Assembly: GCA_023250585.1 (NCBI GenBank)
Contig: JAHFAK010000068.1
Coordinates: forward strand, 1-12,755
Reading direction: 5' to 3'
Length of the DNA stretch: 12,755 nucleotides
From: Deltaproteobacteria bacterium
Lineage (GTDB): Bacteria > Bdellovibrionota_F > JAHFAK01
Under the pieces are notes generated by a model. That model had not been told where the DNA came from and made no database searches. It worked only from the letters and a program-made list of their open reading frames with translations. The position numbers and the translations under genes were made by a program. Of this stretch, positions 3,168 to 12,755 are shown in pieces (positions within the stretch are counted from its first letter, which is position 1; each line of letters starts with the position of its first letter).

Positions 3168-3292
3168 ATGCTCAATTGCATTCAAACGCTAACTTCGTTG
3201 GCTTCGTCATCGGCTCCTCAGCGTACTACTTGCGTACGCTTGTGTCGCCTCCTCCTCGCCGCCTTGTTATCATTTTGAATGCAATTGAGTAT
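3168..3292. repeat. 125-nt foldback (REP/MITE-like) element after fetB
   Basis: Outer 19-nt inverted arms at 3168-3186 and 3274-3292 (core CTCAATTGCATTCAAA) pair with a single G-T exception. At the exact centre a second stem, AGCGTAC/GTACGCT (3220-3226 and 3234-3240), closes a 7-nt loop. Both stems share the midpoint 3230. The interior is clearly richer in G+C than the flanks and contains several TCCTC and CTTCG blocks. It begins one base after the fetB stop codon. It could be a mobile REP/MITE-type element, an mRNA 3'-end stabiliser or a transcription barrier. There is no T-run right after the hairpin, so a simple intrinsic terminator is less likely. Confidence 0.7.
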
Positions 3293-3335: not shown

Positions 3336-3366
3336 ATTTTTACTTTTTATTTTTATGTACGAGTTA

Positions 3367-3416
3367 TTTCGACTATTGTCAAATAAACTCGCGAGTATTT
3401 TTGACAATAGTCGAAA
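3367..3416. promoter_or_regulatory. 17-bp inverted repeat with internal palindrome, probable operator of the ATPase gene
   Basis: The arms TTTCGACTATTGTCAAA (3367-3383) and TTTGACAATAGTCGAAA (3400-3416) are perfectly complementary. Each arm is itself a quasi-palindrome (GAC...GTC). Between them lies the 10-bp palindrome ACTCGCGAGT (3387-3396). The right arm contains a consensus TTGACA (-35-like) and ends 19 nt before the ATPase ATG. This layout suits a regulator-binding operator or the terminus of a mobile unit. Confidence 0.6.
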
Positions 3417-3429
3417 ATAGTAGTAAGTT
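3401..3429 (+). promoter_or_regulatory. Possible promoter of the DUF4143 ATPase
   Basis: A perfect -35 TTGACA (3401-3406) is followed after 17 bp by TAAGTT (3424-3429), a poor -10 with three of six matches. The start would fall close to the ATG at 3436, the same near-leaderless geometry seen at the other promoters here. The -35 lies inside the inverted repeat, so a protein bound there would block it. Confidence 0.3.
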
Positions 3430-3435
3430 ACAATT

Positions 3436-4551
3436 ATGATAAAAAGATACTTAAAAACGCAGGTTCTAAAAGATATTCAGAAAAAGATGGTATTTATTGG
3501 AGGACCAAGACAGGTTGGCAAAACGACTTTTGCATGTGAACTACTTGGAAATAGTAAAAACGGATACCTTAATTGGGATATTTCAGAAAACAGAGAATCA
3601 ATACTAAAAAGAGAGTTGCCCAATTCAAAATTTTGGGTGTTTGACGAAATTCACAAATACAGGAAATGGAGAAATTATATCAAAGGATTGTATGATAAAA
3701 AAATTCCAGATCAAAAAATACTCGTAACGGGAAGTGCAAGACTTGATTATTATAGATTTGGAGGAGATTCGTTGCAGGGCAGATATCATTATTTGAGATT
3801 GTTTCCATTGTCAGTAGCAGAACTTAAAATTGTAACCGAAAATGATTTAAATGAATTACTGGAACTTGGATGTTTTCCCGAACCATTTTTTAGCTCATCA
3901 AAAATTGAATCTAAAAGATGGGCAAGGGAATACCGTACAAGAGTGATACAAGAAGATATTCGGACCTTAGAAAAAATATCTGATATAACAAATATCGAAT
4001 TATTAATGATTAAGCTGCCTGAAATGGTTGGGTCTCCACTTTCAATAAATTCTATTAGAGAAGACTTGCAGGTTAGCCACAAAGCAGTTTCAGATTGGAT
4101 TAATATATTAGAAAGATTATATGTTATCTTTAGACTACCTCCTTTTGGAACTTCACGGATTCGTGCCGTAAAAAAAGAACAAAAGCATTATCATTTTGAT
4201 TATACGCTGGTTAGCGATCAAGCGCTTAGATTTGAAAATCTTGTCGCACTAAATCTTCTTAAATGGGTCTCATATATTGAGGATACACAAGGTGAAGATA
4301 TCGAGCTTAGGTATTTTAGAGATATAGATGGAAGAGAGGTTGATTTTGTTATTGTAAAAAATAAAAAGCCAGTCACCTTTATAGAAGTTAAGTGGAATGA
4401 TACTGAAATTGGGAAAGGATTAAAATATTTAAAACAAAGATTCCCCGAGTGTGAAGCATATCAGATTTCTGCGGTTGGGAAAAAAGAGTATATTAATCAG
4501 GATGGAATTATTGTTCTTCCAGCAGTAAAATATTTAAGTAAACTTATTTAA
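3436..4551 (+). CDS. AAA_14/DUF4143 ATP-binding protein
   Basis: A 371-residue protein of the widespread AAA_14 plus DUF4143 family. Walker A GGPRQVGKT is at residues 22-30, Walker B WVFDEIHK at 67-74, and the sensor-like VTGSARLD at about 97-104. A middle part with a helix-turn-helix-like segment (IREDLQVSHKAVSDWI) follows. The C-terminal domain carries REVDF (residues 300-304) and FIEVK (315-319), a PD-(D/E)xK-like set with Asp303, Glu317 and Lys319. The biochemical role of this family is not settled; it is common in accessory regions of bacteria and archaea. The gene has no Shine-Dalgarno site and is preceded by a strong inverted repeat. It overlaps the TIGR02757 gene tail to tail by 8 nt. 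Nothing indicates truncation. Confidence 0.9.
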   Translation: MIKRYLKTQVLKDIQKKMVFIGGPRQVGKTTFACELLGNSKNGYLNWDISENRESILKRELPNSKFWVFDEIHKYRKWRNYIKGLYDKKIPDQKILVTGSARLDYYRFGGDSLQGRYHYLRLFPLSVAELKIVTENDLNELLELGCFPEPFFSSSKIESKRWAREYRTRVIQEDIRTLEKISDITNIELLMIKLPEMVGSPLSINSIREDLQVSHKAVSDWINILERLYVIFRLPPFGTSRIRAVKKEQKHYHFDYTLVSDQALRFENLVALNLLKWVSYIEDTQGEDIELRYFRDIDGREVDFVIVKNKKPVTFIEVKWNDTEIGKGLKYLKQRFPECEAYQISAVGKKEYINQDGIIVLPAVKYLSKLI

Positions 4552-9639: not shown

Positions 9640-9672
9640 AGAAGCCTAAACTTTATTCTTTTTATGCTTCTT
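9639..9672. terminator. Bidirectional terminator between convergent genes
   Basis: A 12-bp stem with one mismatch (9639-9650 with 9661-9672, core AAGAAGC/GCTTCTT plus TAAA/TTTA) closes a 10-nt loop. T-rich sequence follows on both strands. It covers the last base of the TAA of the secreted protein and the whole TAG of the nucleotidyltransferase gene, so it could end transcription from both sides. Confidence 0.5.
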
Positions 9673-10197
9673 CTCTTTTAAGAACTTCTTTACAAGACTA
9701 AAGTGATAGGTATCTATCTCTTCTGCAAATGTGGTAACAGCTTGTTTATACTTTTTTTCAAGAATAGCTAAAGATAGCTTTTGCGTAGTGAATAAGAATT
9801 CAATATCCTGAAAATCCTTATTTTCTAAACGAGAAATTTTGGAAATAATTAATGTATAAGGATCTAAAACATATACACGAATATTCTTAAATGACTCCTT
9901 GAATTCTCGAGCCTCTTCTTCAAAGTTCTCAGATATCAGATACATTCCATCGGCAGGAACATCAACATACAATCCATTATGCTCTTTCGAAAGCTTTGAA
10001 TTTCTTCCTGCTATCTTGAGAATATCCTTTGCTTCATCTGAACTTACAAGATCAATATCAACGGTAGATCGATGAGATCCATAATAAAGTAAAAGTGCAG
10101 AGCCTCCCAGAAGATATAATGAGTATGTTTTCTTTAGATTGAGTTGTGCATCAATATCGTGCAAAAACCCAACAAGATTGTCCCGTAAAAAACTCAT
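9646..10197 (-). CDS. Nucleotidyltransferase, DUF6036/AbiEii-like (putative toxin)
   Basis: A 183-residue protein with the pol-beta-type nucleotidyltransferase core. LGGSALLLYYGSHRSTVDIDL (residues 30-50) gives the GGS motif, Arg43, Thr45 and the metal-binding pair Asp47/Asp49. This arrangement (GGxA, RxTxDID) is that of DUF6036 and AbiEii-type proteins. Some relatives act as toxins by modifying tRNA or other acceptors with nucleotides. A further conserved stretch (VYVLDPYTLIISKISRLENKDFQDI) matches the middle helix of this class. The C-terminus is very Lys-rich. Its ATG overlaps the stop of the XRE gene by 4 nt (ATGA), so the pair is translationally coupled. The toxin role is inferred from the pairing; target unknown. 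Confidence 0.8.
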   Translation of the reverse strand: MSFLRDNLVGFLHDIDAQLNLKKTYSLYLLGGSALLLYYGSHRSTVDIDLVSSDEAKDILKIAGRNSKLSKEHNGLYVDVPADGMYLISENFEEEAREFKESFKNIRVYVLDPYTLIISKISRLENKDFQDIEFLFTTQKLSLAILEKKYKQAVTTFAEEIDTYHFSLVKKFLKEKKHKKNKV

Positions 10198-10856
10198 GAT
10201 AAATGCCTCTTAAAAGAATTAAGATCAAACCGATCGTATAAATACCACTCACGTACAAAATTATTTCTTACAGGTTCCAGCAAATCAAAAAACTTTGGAT
10301 CAAAATAAAAAGAATCTTTCTTGATAATTTTGAGCTCTTTTATTTTATTATAAACTGCTTGTAATTTTTTATTTTTATTTTCAAGTTTCAACGTAACATC
10401 TATTATAAAACCAAGTCTGTTCTGCAGTTTTTCTTGATAACAACGTTCAATGAGTTGATCAAAATTAATAGTATTGAGCTGCTTCCATAATAAAGCGGGA
10501 AGACATTCAAGATAGCGAGGTTCTTTAGGATTTTTCAAAATTTCTATAATGAGATCTTCGATTTTTCTTTTTTCACCCAAAACAAACGAAGATGTAACAA
10601 AAGTGTTTATTCCATAGTGCTCAAAATTATAAAGTATATCATCTTTAATGGCTTTTGGATCCTGAAAGAAAGCTTCCATAGTAACATTAAAATATCGGGC
10701 AATACTATAAAGCTCACGTGCTCTTAACTGAATTTTTCCTTTTTCAATTTTAGACCACATACTTTGTGAATATCCAAGTTTTTTTGCTACTTCATGTTGA
10801 GATAAGTTCTTCTCAATACGAAGCTTTTTAATGGAATCTCCAATTATTCTATTCAT
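10194..10856 (-). CDS. XRE-family regulator with AbiEi-like C-terminal domain (putative antitoxin)
   Basis: A 220-residue protein. Residues about 9-63 form an XRE helix-turn-helix (SQHEVAKKLGYSQSMWSKIEKG with the recognition helix SQSMWSKIE). The rest has an acidic/aromatic linker, then KNPKEPRYLECLPALLWK and LQNRLGFIIDVTLKLENK. That pattern, recalled from AbiEi-like antitoxin families, carries helices around a PxRxLExLPxLL and QNRLGF pair. Together with the nucleotidyltransferase this looks like an AbiE-type toxin-antitoxin unit in which the regulator precedes the effector. The ATG at 10856 lies 7 nt after a strong -10, so the mRNA is leaderless. Autoregulation by the HTH at that promoter is plausible but not shown. 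Confidence 0.78.
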   Translation of the reverse strand: MNRIIGDSIKKLRIEKNLSQHEVAKKLGYSQSMWSKIEKGKIQLRARELYSIARYFNVTMEAFFQDPKAIKDDILYNFEHYGINTFVTSSFVLGEKRKIEDLIIEILKNPKEPRYLECLPALLWKQLNTINFDQLIERCYQEKLQNRLGFIIDVTLKLENKNKKLQAVYNKIKELKIIKKDSFYFDPKFFDLLEPVRNNFVREWYLYDRFDLNSFKRHLS

Positions 10857-10863
10857 GACTATA

Positions 10864-10892
10864 ATTATATTCTAAAATTGAATAAAAATCAA
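10864..10892 (-). promoter_or_regulatory. Sigma70-like promoter of the XRE/nucleotidyltransferase pair
   Basis: On the minus strand TTGATT (10892-10887) and TATAAT (10869-10864) are separated by 17 bp, close to consensus. Only 7 nt lie between the -10 and the ATG at 10856, so transcription starts at or next to the start codon. The -35 overlaps the stop codon (10889-10891) of the DUF6580 gene. Confidence 0.7.
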
Positions 10893-11416
10893 TGGGTCAA
10901 AGAAGTTGAGAGACGTAAGGCGGGGAATTGTTTTTGAGCAAACGCAAACCCACCAAACAAAATTCCTATATATACTAAATCACCTGCAAGTGTATTTTGG
11001 AAAAATGGAAGAGCGGCAATATAGCATGTCATAAGGCCATTGATATTTTTTGTGTACATTCCGGAGAGCATCCATACACCAAAATTTGTTACGACAAAAA
11101 ACAGTACCGAGCTCATGAATGCTGTCGCGATAATTCTAGATGCAGTTCTTCGTTTCTGAAGCCATAAGCCAATAGCAATGATTGCAACAAAGCACCCATA
11201 CGTAAGAATCATCAACTGATGCAAACCGAGTATAAGATCACTCAGAAACAGAGCGGCGAGTGGAACGATAAAAGCAAAACGCTTTTGGGAAAAATATGCT
11301 CCACCAAAAAGGGCGATAGCAGCTATAGGAGCAAAGTTTGGCGGATGCGGAATTAAACGCGAAATTGCTGCAATAAGAATCATTGCAGTAAGAATCAAAT
11401 AACGAGAGTTAAACAT
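10889..11416 (-). CDS. DUF6580 family membrane protein
   Basis: A 175-residue integral membrane protein with about five hydrophobic segments. The family signature is clear: RLIPHPPNFAPIAAIALFGG near the N-terminus, LAALFLSDLILGLH next, then VTNFGVWMLSGMYTKNINGL with a Cys-Tyr pair, and ALPFFQNTLAGDLVYIGILFGG at the end. The size and layout resemble the substrate-binding S components of ECF-type vitamin transporters; this is a structural analogy, and no substrate is known to me for the family. The start is fixed by AAAGGAGG at 11422-11429, five bases before the ATG. Nothing riboswitch-like was recognised in the short leader. It ends 32 nt before the XRE gene, and the next promoter's -35 overlaps its stop. 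Confidence 0.85.
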   Translation of the reverse strand: MFNSRYLILTAMILIAAISRLIPHPPNFAPIAAIALFGGAYFSQKRFAFIVPLAALFLSDLILGLHQLMILTYGCFVAIIAIGLWLQKRRTASRIIATAFMSSVLFFVVTNFGVWMLSGMYTKNINGLMTCYIAALPFFQNTLAGDLVYIGILFGGFAFAQKQFPALRLSTSLTH

Positions 11417-11465
11417 AATTACCTCCTTTAGGTCCTTTCATAAAAACATTTATAAAATAATATTT

Positions 11466-11592
11466 TGAAAACCTCTAAAAAGTGTCCAGATACAAGGCGG
11501 CTGTAAAGTTGCAACCGGAGCGTATATGATAATACGTGAGGATTGCGACTTTACAGGCAACGCAGTAGATGGATAGTTTTTAGAGGTTTTCA
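11466..11592. repeat. 127-nt foldback (REP/MITE-like) element at the malic enzyme 3' end
   Basis: The arms TGAAAACCTCTAAAAA (11466-11481) and TTTTTAGAGGTTTTCA (11577-11592) are perfectly complementary. Further in, CTGTAAAGT (11501-11509) pairs with ACTTTACAG (11548-11556), followed by GCAA/TTGC pairing. The tip CGTAT/ATACG (11521-11525 and 11532-11536) closes a 6-nt loop, so the whole unit folds as one imperfect hairpin. The right arm contains the last codons and TAA stop of the malic enzyme. It is almost the same length as the element after fetB and is built on the same plan. Confidence 0.75.
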
Positions 11593-12755
11593 TATTTTAT
11601 AGGCAAATATTCAGGAAACCACATATAATCTTCAAGCTTACTTTCAAGAGTGTCAAGCGAAGGGTTATCGATAAGCCCTTCTCCTGCTGCCTGTTTTATA
11701 ATAGCAAGAGCAATCTGCTTTGAACACACCCGGATTTTATTAATCGAAGGATAGACTGATCCTTCTTGTATATCCTCATCGCTCAGCATGTTACCAAGCG
11801 CTTTTGCCGCTGCTAGAAAAAGTCCATCAGAAATGCGTCTGATTTTTCCAAAGCTTACACTCAATCCCATTCCCGGAAAAATATACGCATTATTTCCTTG
11901 GCCAATACGATATCGTTTACCATTAAATATCACCGGCTCAAATGGACTGCCTGTTGCAACAATTGCCGTTCCATTACTCCATCTTAATGCTTCTTCTGGT
12001 GTACATTCTGATTTTGAAGTAGGATTTGAGAGAGGAAAAATAATTGGGCGATCACACGACAAAACCATTGTTTCGATAATTTCTTTTGTGAATAAATTCT
12101 TTGTGGCTGAAACTCCAATTAATATAGTTGGCTTAACACCTTGAATAACTTCGAGAAGACTCATGCCTGCCCGAAATTCGCCTTTTGGTCGAGCATATTT
12201 TTTTTGAAATTCTTCGATATCTCCACGGTTTACAGTAATAAGACCTTCACGATCTATCATCCAAATAGATGCTTGTGCAGCCGCCTCTGTGCTTCCCGCT
12301 TCTTTCATGGCAAGGACAATTAAATCAGCAATGCCATGCCCTGCAGCTCCTGCGCCTGCAAAGACAATTTTTTGTTCTTGGATACTTTTCCCTGTCATTC
12401 GTAATGCACCAAAAATTCCCGCAAGCGCAACCGCGGCAGTTCCTTGAATGTCATCATTAAATGTACAAAGCTCATTTCTAAATCGCGCAAGCTGCTGAAT
12501 TGCATTGTCGCGATAAAAGTCTTCCCACTGTAACAGTACATTGGGGAACACTTTTTTAATTGCTTGGATAAAAGCATCAATAAATTTTTGATATGCTTCT
12601 CCTCGAATTCGTTTCTGTCGAAGACCAATATATAATGGATCCTTGAGGCGCGTTTCATTATCGGTTCCAACATCAAGAAAAATAGGAAGCGTATTATACG
12701 GAGGAATGCCAGCACAGAGCGTGTAGAGAGAAAGTTTGCCCATGGGAATGCCCAT
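11580..12755 (-). CDS. maeA: NAD-dependent malic enzyme, long form, 5' partial
   Basis: The C-terminal 391 residues of a long-form malic enzyme (usual length about 540-570); the N-terminal part lies beyond the right edge. The apparent Met at the edge is internal, within GMGIPxGKL. Visible are the catalytic Lys of MGIPMGKLSLY (residue 7 here), CAGIPPYNTLPIFLDVGTDN, the metal ligands Glu-Asp in WEDF (77-80), Asp in TFNDDIQGTAAV, the NAD-binding FAGAGAAGHGIAD, and SNPTSKSECTPEEA with GSPFEPV later. It decarboxylates malate to pyruvate with reduction of NAD(P); NAD is the usual cofactor of this form, but the specificity residue was not settled. The product links the TCA cycle to pyruvate in the cytosol. 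The last codons (ENL, stop) lie inside a foldback element. Confidence 0.93.
   Translation of the reverse strand: MGIPMGKLSLYTLCAGIPPYNTLPIFLDVGTDNETRLKDPLYIGLRQKRIRGEAYQKFIDAFIQAIKKVFPNVLLQWEDFYRDNAIQQLARFRNELCTFNDDIQGTAAVALAGIFGALRMTGKSIQEQKIVFAGAGAAGHGIADLIVLAMKEAGSTEAAAQASIWMIDREGLITVNRGDIEEFQKKYARPKGEFRAGMSLLEVIQGVKPTILIGVSATKNLFTKEIIETMVLSCDRPIIFPLSNPTSKSECTPEEALRWSNGTAIVATGSPFEPVIFNGKRYRIGQGNNAYIFPGMGLSVSFGKIRRISDGLFLAAAKALGNMLSDEDIQEGSVYPSINKIRVCSKQIALAIIKQAAGEGLIDNPSLDTLESKLEDYMWFPEYLPIKYENL

Follow-up and report, generated by a model that had tools for sequence, protein, structure and literature searches.

The stretch of DNA that we analysed, called the window below, is 12,755 nucleotides long and carries at one end a malic enzyme gene (positions 11580 to 12755, minus strand; PF00390 and PF03949, homologue alignments) whose 5' end is cut by the end of the contig. 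The gene that follows it downstream has the same orientation and encodes a DUF6580 membrane protein (10889 to 11416, minus strand; PF20221). The 3' end of the malic enzyme gene comes from an element that occupies positions 11466 to 11592 (the plus strand being the strand of its core) and that its fold, its copies in the genome and a core match at 11486 to 11572 identify as a tail-less copy of a MITE-like hairpin family. A near full-length hairpin with a perfect 16-bp arm had been noticed here by a sequence-only reading, and RNA folding confirmed it: the foldback reaches −66.6 kcal/mol (compare with −25.5±3.3 for dinucleotide shuffles, a z-score of −12.6), a value equalled by none of 200 shuffles.

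The outermost 16 bp of the hairpin pair perfectly and form the terminal inverted repeats, TGAAAACCTCTAAAAA on the left (11466 to 11481, plus strand; the family ends are GGGAACCTCTAAAAA) and its partner on the right (11577 to 11592, minus strand). Inside them lie the conserved left core arm CCAGATACAAGGCG (11486 to 11499, plus strand), common to copies under about ten phylum labels among the matches listed, and the conserved right core arm CAACGCAGTAGATGG (11558 to 11572, plus strand), which covaries with it. The region between the arms (11501 to 11556, plus strand) is an inverted repeat of 25 nt that combines a variable inner stem with a conserved apical hairpin (CCGGAG-CGTAT..ATACG-TGAGG) and shows covariation across copies. 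No open reading frame of 80 amino acids or more was found inside the element, and no Rfam family within the window. The malic enzyme reading frame, on the minus strand, ends at the TAA at positions 11580 to 11582, and thus the codons GAA AAC CTC TAA fall within the right arm, just as had been read from the letters. In homologue alignments, distant malic enzymes (about 41–45% identical) also stop close to the conserved motif MW.P.Y, so that the element's share of the protein is limited to three residues (E-N-L) and the stop.

A presumed target duplication, TATTT, flanks the element at 11461 to 11465 and at 11593 to 11597; when one base of the element is added on each side, the repeat becomes ATATTTT on both flanks (11460 to 11466 on the left). 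Since the sequence is AT-rich, this duplication is weaker evidence than those found across the family, from which the window copy departs both by the length of its repeat (5 or 7 bp instead of 4) and by having no left tail.

Looking for the unit in its own genome (2.24 Mb, 164 contigs), we found by BLAST about 21 further copies; a search with the core motif gave 25 copies in all, and the two methods combined about 29. These copies rule out a unique structure, the outcome that the earlier reading had said would count against it, and its suggestion that the element is mobile is now supported by copy number, terminal inverted repeats and target duplications. BLAST detected the element in none of 58 other genomes, neither the hairpin nor this malic enzyme had a match in the nearest genome examined, which belongs only to the same class, and no match was found in viral contigs, plasmids or phages that would indicate carriage by a virus or plasmid. 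Copies are about 125–155 bp long. In the standard form of about 152 bp, the left part consists, in order, of the end GG(G)nnCTCT..., a short tail and a second, imperfect copy of the end, GGGAACCTCT(A/C)AAAAAG; the core hairpin follows, and then the right end ...AGAGGTTCC(C). The terminal inverted repeats, 16 perfect bp in the window copy, are represented in other copies by ends of the GGGAACCTCT type, and the left tail is absent from the window copy and from at least two others (L007 and L009). The genome also holds three tail-only relics, each reduced to the left end and the opening bases of the second end copy, with the hairpin missing (L032, C161:2636; L033, C6:14434; L034, C14:12977), and L033 lies directly upstream of a response-regulator gene.

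Once the copies had been aligned and their ends placed by eye, 14 of the 29 proved to be bordered by an exact direct repeat of 4 bp, whereas 2000 shuffles of left against right flanks averaged 1.3 such cases and never exceeded 5. The repeats vary among copies (TTTA, TAAA, ATTA, TATA, TTAT, TTGA...) and are therefore target duplications rather than element sequence; they are AT-rich and mostly contain TA. Short, multicopy, devoid of a transposase gene, and provided with terminal inverted repeats and target-site duplications, the element is a MITE-like non-autonomous transposon. The sequence-only reading had also proposed that it could be a 3' structure intrinsic to the malic enzyme transcript, whose pairing constrains the C-terminus. 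Even with so strong a hairpin at the end of the gene, we give this proposal practically no credence: it is refuted by the other copies, since about 28 loci unrelated to this one carry the same unit, with target duplications.

The position of the copies relative to genes, which were called by ORF length only, departed strongly from a uniform-spacer expectation. Where a right-hand gene extends into the element, its stop lies 15–22 nt from the end of the core in 13 of 17 cases in the genome of origin and in 27 of 46 other cases, and the right boundary of the element lies about 18–20 nt from that same point. As a null, insertion was allowed uniformly anywhere in the pre-insertion spacer. Right-end stops fell on the boundary in 12 of 16 own copies (compare with 5.7 expected), in 35 of 59 copies from other phyla (14.0 expected) and in 10 of 14 copies of a second sample, made of loci fetched later for other purposes (4.7 expected). 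The same test applied to the left ends of the same loci gave no enrichment (3 of 9 versus 2.5, 4 of 43 versus 8.6 and 2 of 11 versus 3.3, respectively). Outside the genome of origin the left boundary is less exact and left-side stops cluster 34–45 nt before the core, which suggests that some left ends lie at stops too; the orientation bias is real and its size is uncertain. In ten own copies where the duplication is clean (L003, L004, L005, L009, L012, L015, L018, L019, L021 and L179), taking out the element and one repeat in silico left the neighbouring protein as it was. Taken together, these results show that, as a rule, the element is found exactly at a gene's stop codon in a single orientation, and that the protein is left unchanged.

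Survivorship by itself could produce such a pattern if short AT-rich or YTAR-like sites were preferred and insertions within genes were lost, stops being then the commonest harmless sites. The AT-rich duplications, usually with TA, fit this account, and the spacers of gene-dense genomes are so short that uniform insertion would by itself give 5.7 of 16. However, the observed values exceed the spacer expectation at least two-fold in three samples, some insertions lie on a stop despite 600–1000 bp of free spacer at the other side, and a nearly palindromic target preference does not account for a strong effect at the right end with none at the left. We thus hold an explanation by survivorship only to be possible, though rather doubtful.

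The window copy is not on a reconstructed stop codon. When its flanks were joined in silico, the malic enzyme fragment went from 391 to 404 residues, 16 inferred residues replacing ENL, and the new end overlapped the start of the next gene. The idea that landing at the 3' end of the gene had set its last residues is thereby supported and, since the joined flanks change the C-terminus, the window copy is either an exception or a case in which the ancestral stop was lost later.

The core is not confined to this genome. With the pattern CCAGATRCRAGGCG-N45..75-CAACGnnGYAGATGG, at least 115 stretches of named genomes matched, with about ten phylum labels among the matches listed: Rokubacteria, Deltaproteobacteria, Nitrospirae, Chlamydiae, Selenomonadales and Peptococcaceae, Methylomirabilota, Gemmatimonadetes, Chloroflexi, Bacteroidota, Gammaproteobacteria, Gallionella and Kaiserbacteria. 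Most carriers are MAGs, so single matches may be binning errors; isolates among them include Sporomusa malonica, Geothermobacter hydrogeniphilus and Geomobilimonas luticola. The distribution is patchy: the core was present in 5 of 386 sampled genomes (about 1%), with at least three copies in each, and was absent from the genomes nearest to that of the window. In a control, the reversed pattern matched nowhere in the 386 genomes. The asymmetric tail architecture recurs elsewhere with different end sequences, for example TTGATGGnnTCGTAAAAAGTC and CTAGCAGGCTGCTGAAAAAC. One genome of 5.3 Mb (G064, that of L133) has undergone an extreme expansion, with 812 sites of the end TTGAYGGnnTCGTAAAAAGTC, of the TTGATGGnnTCGTAAAAAGTC kind, and no transposase was seen between the end pairs examined in it.

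The R of CCAGATRC and the Y of GYAGATGG, two positions of the core arms that had been left free in the pattern search, were paired as G-C in 111 cases, A-T in 24, G-T in 4 and A-C in none; one A-C was seen among loci fetched later. Together with invariant flanking bases this pair frames a tandem G.A mismatch, and compensatory swaps occur at stem-base positions among non-redundant copies. The strand that carries CCAGAT... outfolds its complement in 25 of 25 own copies and in 102 of 109 others (127 of 134), and isolated mismatches are G.T rather than A.C at ratios of 44:10 (own) and 141:48 (other copies); as copies are related, the covariation and the mismatch counts are not fully independent. 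These data indicate that the fold of the core is selected.

The covariation and the one-strand folding bias are also what would be expected of a structured RNA, either a 3'-end processing or stability element or an sRNA, that had spread by transposition and is now kept for its function in the transcript. The elements lie directly after stop codons, several of them before a terminator-like hairpin, and one gammaproteobacterial copy (L118:7440-7513) reaches the Rfam sRNA family sX9 (RF02228) with 45.3 bits, narrowly over the gathering value of 44. That match spans half of the element and is on the opposite strand; moreover, relative to the flanking genes the strand that folds better is mostly the antisense one, no neighbouring gene is conserved, and the presence of the core in only 5 of 386 genomes is patchy. 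We judge a present function as RNA to be unlikely on these grounds, although it and transposition are not mutually exclusive. A second copy (L089:2992-3066) resembles sX9 weakly (31.8 bits for the same gathering value of 44), and no sX9 match was found in the window or in the other own copies. sX9 is a Xanthomonas sRNA that corresponds, on the opposite strand, to part of the hairpin element only, and it is listed among the most prevalent bacterial sRNA annotations (PMC9029176). It may be partly transposon sequence and, if part of so prevalent an Rfam 'sRNA' family is indeed of that origin, its annotation is affected.

We also looked for the enzyme that moves the element. Searches of the genome of origin for DDE_Tnp_1, DUF772, DDE_Tnp_1_6 and a decayed IS5-like protein yielded no transposase with matching ends; two DDE_Tnp_1 elements are present, with ends different from those of the hairpin family, and neither DUF772 nor DDE_Tnp_1_6 was detected. 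The same searches gave leads in other genomes only. A Chlamydiae MAG with a hairpin copy of the ACCTCT type (L050) contains a decayed DDE_Tnp_1 between inverted GAAACCTCTGAAAAAC and GAAACCTCTGGAAAAC, an IS5-like element whose ends match (ACCTCTGAAAAAC) and of which no equivalent was found in the genome of origin. IS1182-family elements of other genomes have the ends GAGGCTGTAGAAAAACCC and GAGACTGTCGAAAAA, which resemble copies of the CAGGCTGCTGAAAAA type, and two IS1182-family loci (L251 and L252) as well as two hairpin copies (L079 and L117) are found between duplicated palindromes. At L251 and L252, full copies of a terminator-like palindrome stand on both sides. In other, well-stocked genomes no transposase lay between paired ends, the candidate pairs L210-L214 enclosing ordinary genes. 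The likeness of the ends points to a partner in the IS5/IS1182 group, and is not proof of it. MITEs often outlive their autonomous partner, so its absence weakens the claim for this partner and not the assignment to the MITEs.

The strand-specific fold could instead recall REP elements of the REP/RAYT type, in which a Y1 (HUH) transposase recognises a hairpin in single-stranded DNA and mobilises it, and a Y1_Tnp gene containing the string CCAGATGCAAGG does exist on contig C13 of the same genome. Yet target duplications are present, no hairpin copy flanks the Y1 gene, the 12 shared bases belong to coding sequence, and the copies at other loci have no related Y1 gene in their vicinity, all of which makes this type of mobilisation very improbable. 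The gene itself (L036:1459-1896) is IS200-like, and its coding of CCAGATGCAAGG, part of a core arm, is probably a matter of chance.

As to mobilisation and the cause of the stop-codon placement, we infer the following. A DDE transposase of the IS5/IS1182 group would have worked in trans on the ends, its cuts in the target being staggered by 4 bp. Stop codons would be where insertions are made, or where they survive, the right end facing the gene, since a stop (TAA, or TA plus G) would be regenerated by the duplication, either alone or together with the first base of the element. One strand would have to fold, whether during transposition or as RNA, and this would be why the folded core is kept. 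The window copy has TGAA in place of GGG as its outermost bases, so no stop would form at the junction; translation of the malic enzyme would then run into the element and meet the TAA of the arm three codons on, giving the tail ENL. We consider this explanation as a whole, that of a tail-less MITE-like copy moved in trans by such a transposase, belonging to a family inserted at stops and keeping its fold, to be probable and the best available. Only tentatively, and with more doubt than conviction, do we go further and suggest a single cross-phylum family in which selection acts on the core as a single strand in its folded form, the machinery actively puts the right end on stops in one orientation, insertions are neutral to the protein by mechanism and not through survivorship, and the sX9 'sRNA' is a branch.

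MITEs are a kind of element that is already known. One of them, Chunjie of Geobacter uraniireducens, is said to lie in an operon without disturbing it, as its title has it, and it is by that title-level description that we liken the hairpin family to it. Bacterial MITEs such as Correia, ERIC, QMITE and Chunjie are likewise short, non-coding, multicopy and mostly intergenic, with terminal inverted repeats and target duplications (review PMC10969869). Those elements are described within one species or genus, whereas the hairpin core occurs under many phylum labels, with different ends, and its right end lies on stops. The IS5 family and the IS1182 family (for example IS1272/TnSha1, PMC4923244) have ends (GAGGCTGTAGAAAAAC, GAAACCTCTGAAAAAC) similar to those of the hairpin family; no internal sequence common to IS1182/IS5 elements and the hairpin family was noted. 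IS1182 members are known to target palindromes and enter terminator hairpins at the ends of genes, but IS1272 makes blunt insertions that delete part of the hairpin without duplication (PMC4923244), in contrast to the 4-bp duplications at stops described here. MIRU (PMC12548453) are also small repeats at gene junctions that little change the expression of their neighbours; according to the literature they insert at start codons with a coupled ORF, unlike the hairpin family with its core, its terminal inverted repeats and no long ORF. REP/RAYT elements and CGTC palindromes (PMC3733652) are again palindromic intergenic repeats present in several phyla, yet they are units of 20–40 bp tagged GTAG or CGTC and lack target duplications, when our family measures about 150 bp and has them. 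Multicopy palindromic families have been noted in Geobacter and Pelobacter genomes (PMC2700814, PMC2996986, PMC3543383); some are read as regulator sites or RNAs, and we set them beside the hairpin family by description.

In the open-access literature text we found no account of a cross-phylum core or of oriented stop-codon placement, and a literature search with the core sequence returned nothing relevant. If placement on stop codons is built into transposition, a transposon can enter gene-dense genomes without breaking genes and, if this is true, a directional signal exists beyond what a nearly palindromic target can give. The same core with different ends in distant phyla, in about 1% of the sampled genomes, raises the question of its role and of how it travels.

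Two other features of the window deserve mention. At 9646 to 10856, on the minus strand, a gene for an HTH protein is followed by, and overlaps, one for a DUF6036/AbiEii-like nucleotidyltransferase, which is possibly a toxin-antitoxin pair. Around the start of an AAA_14/DUF4143 gene lie two inverted repeats, at 3338 to 3445 (54-nt arms, 72%) and at 3168 to 3292 (19-nt arms, 95%, 87 nt apart).
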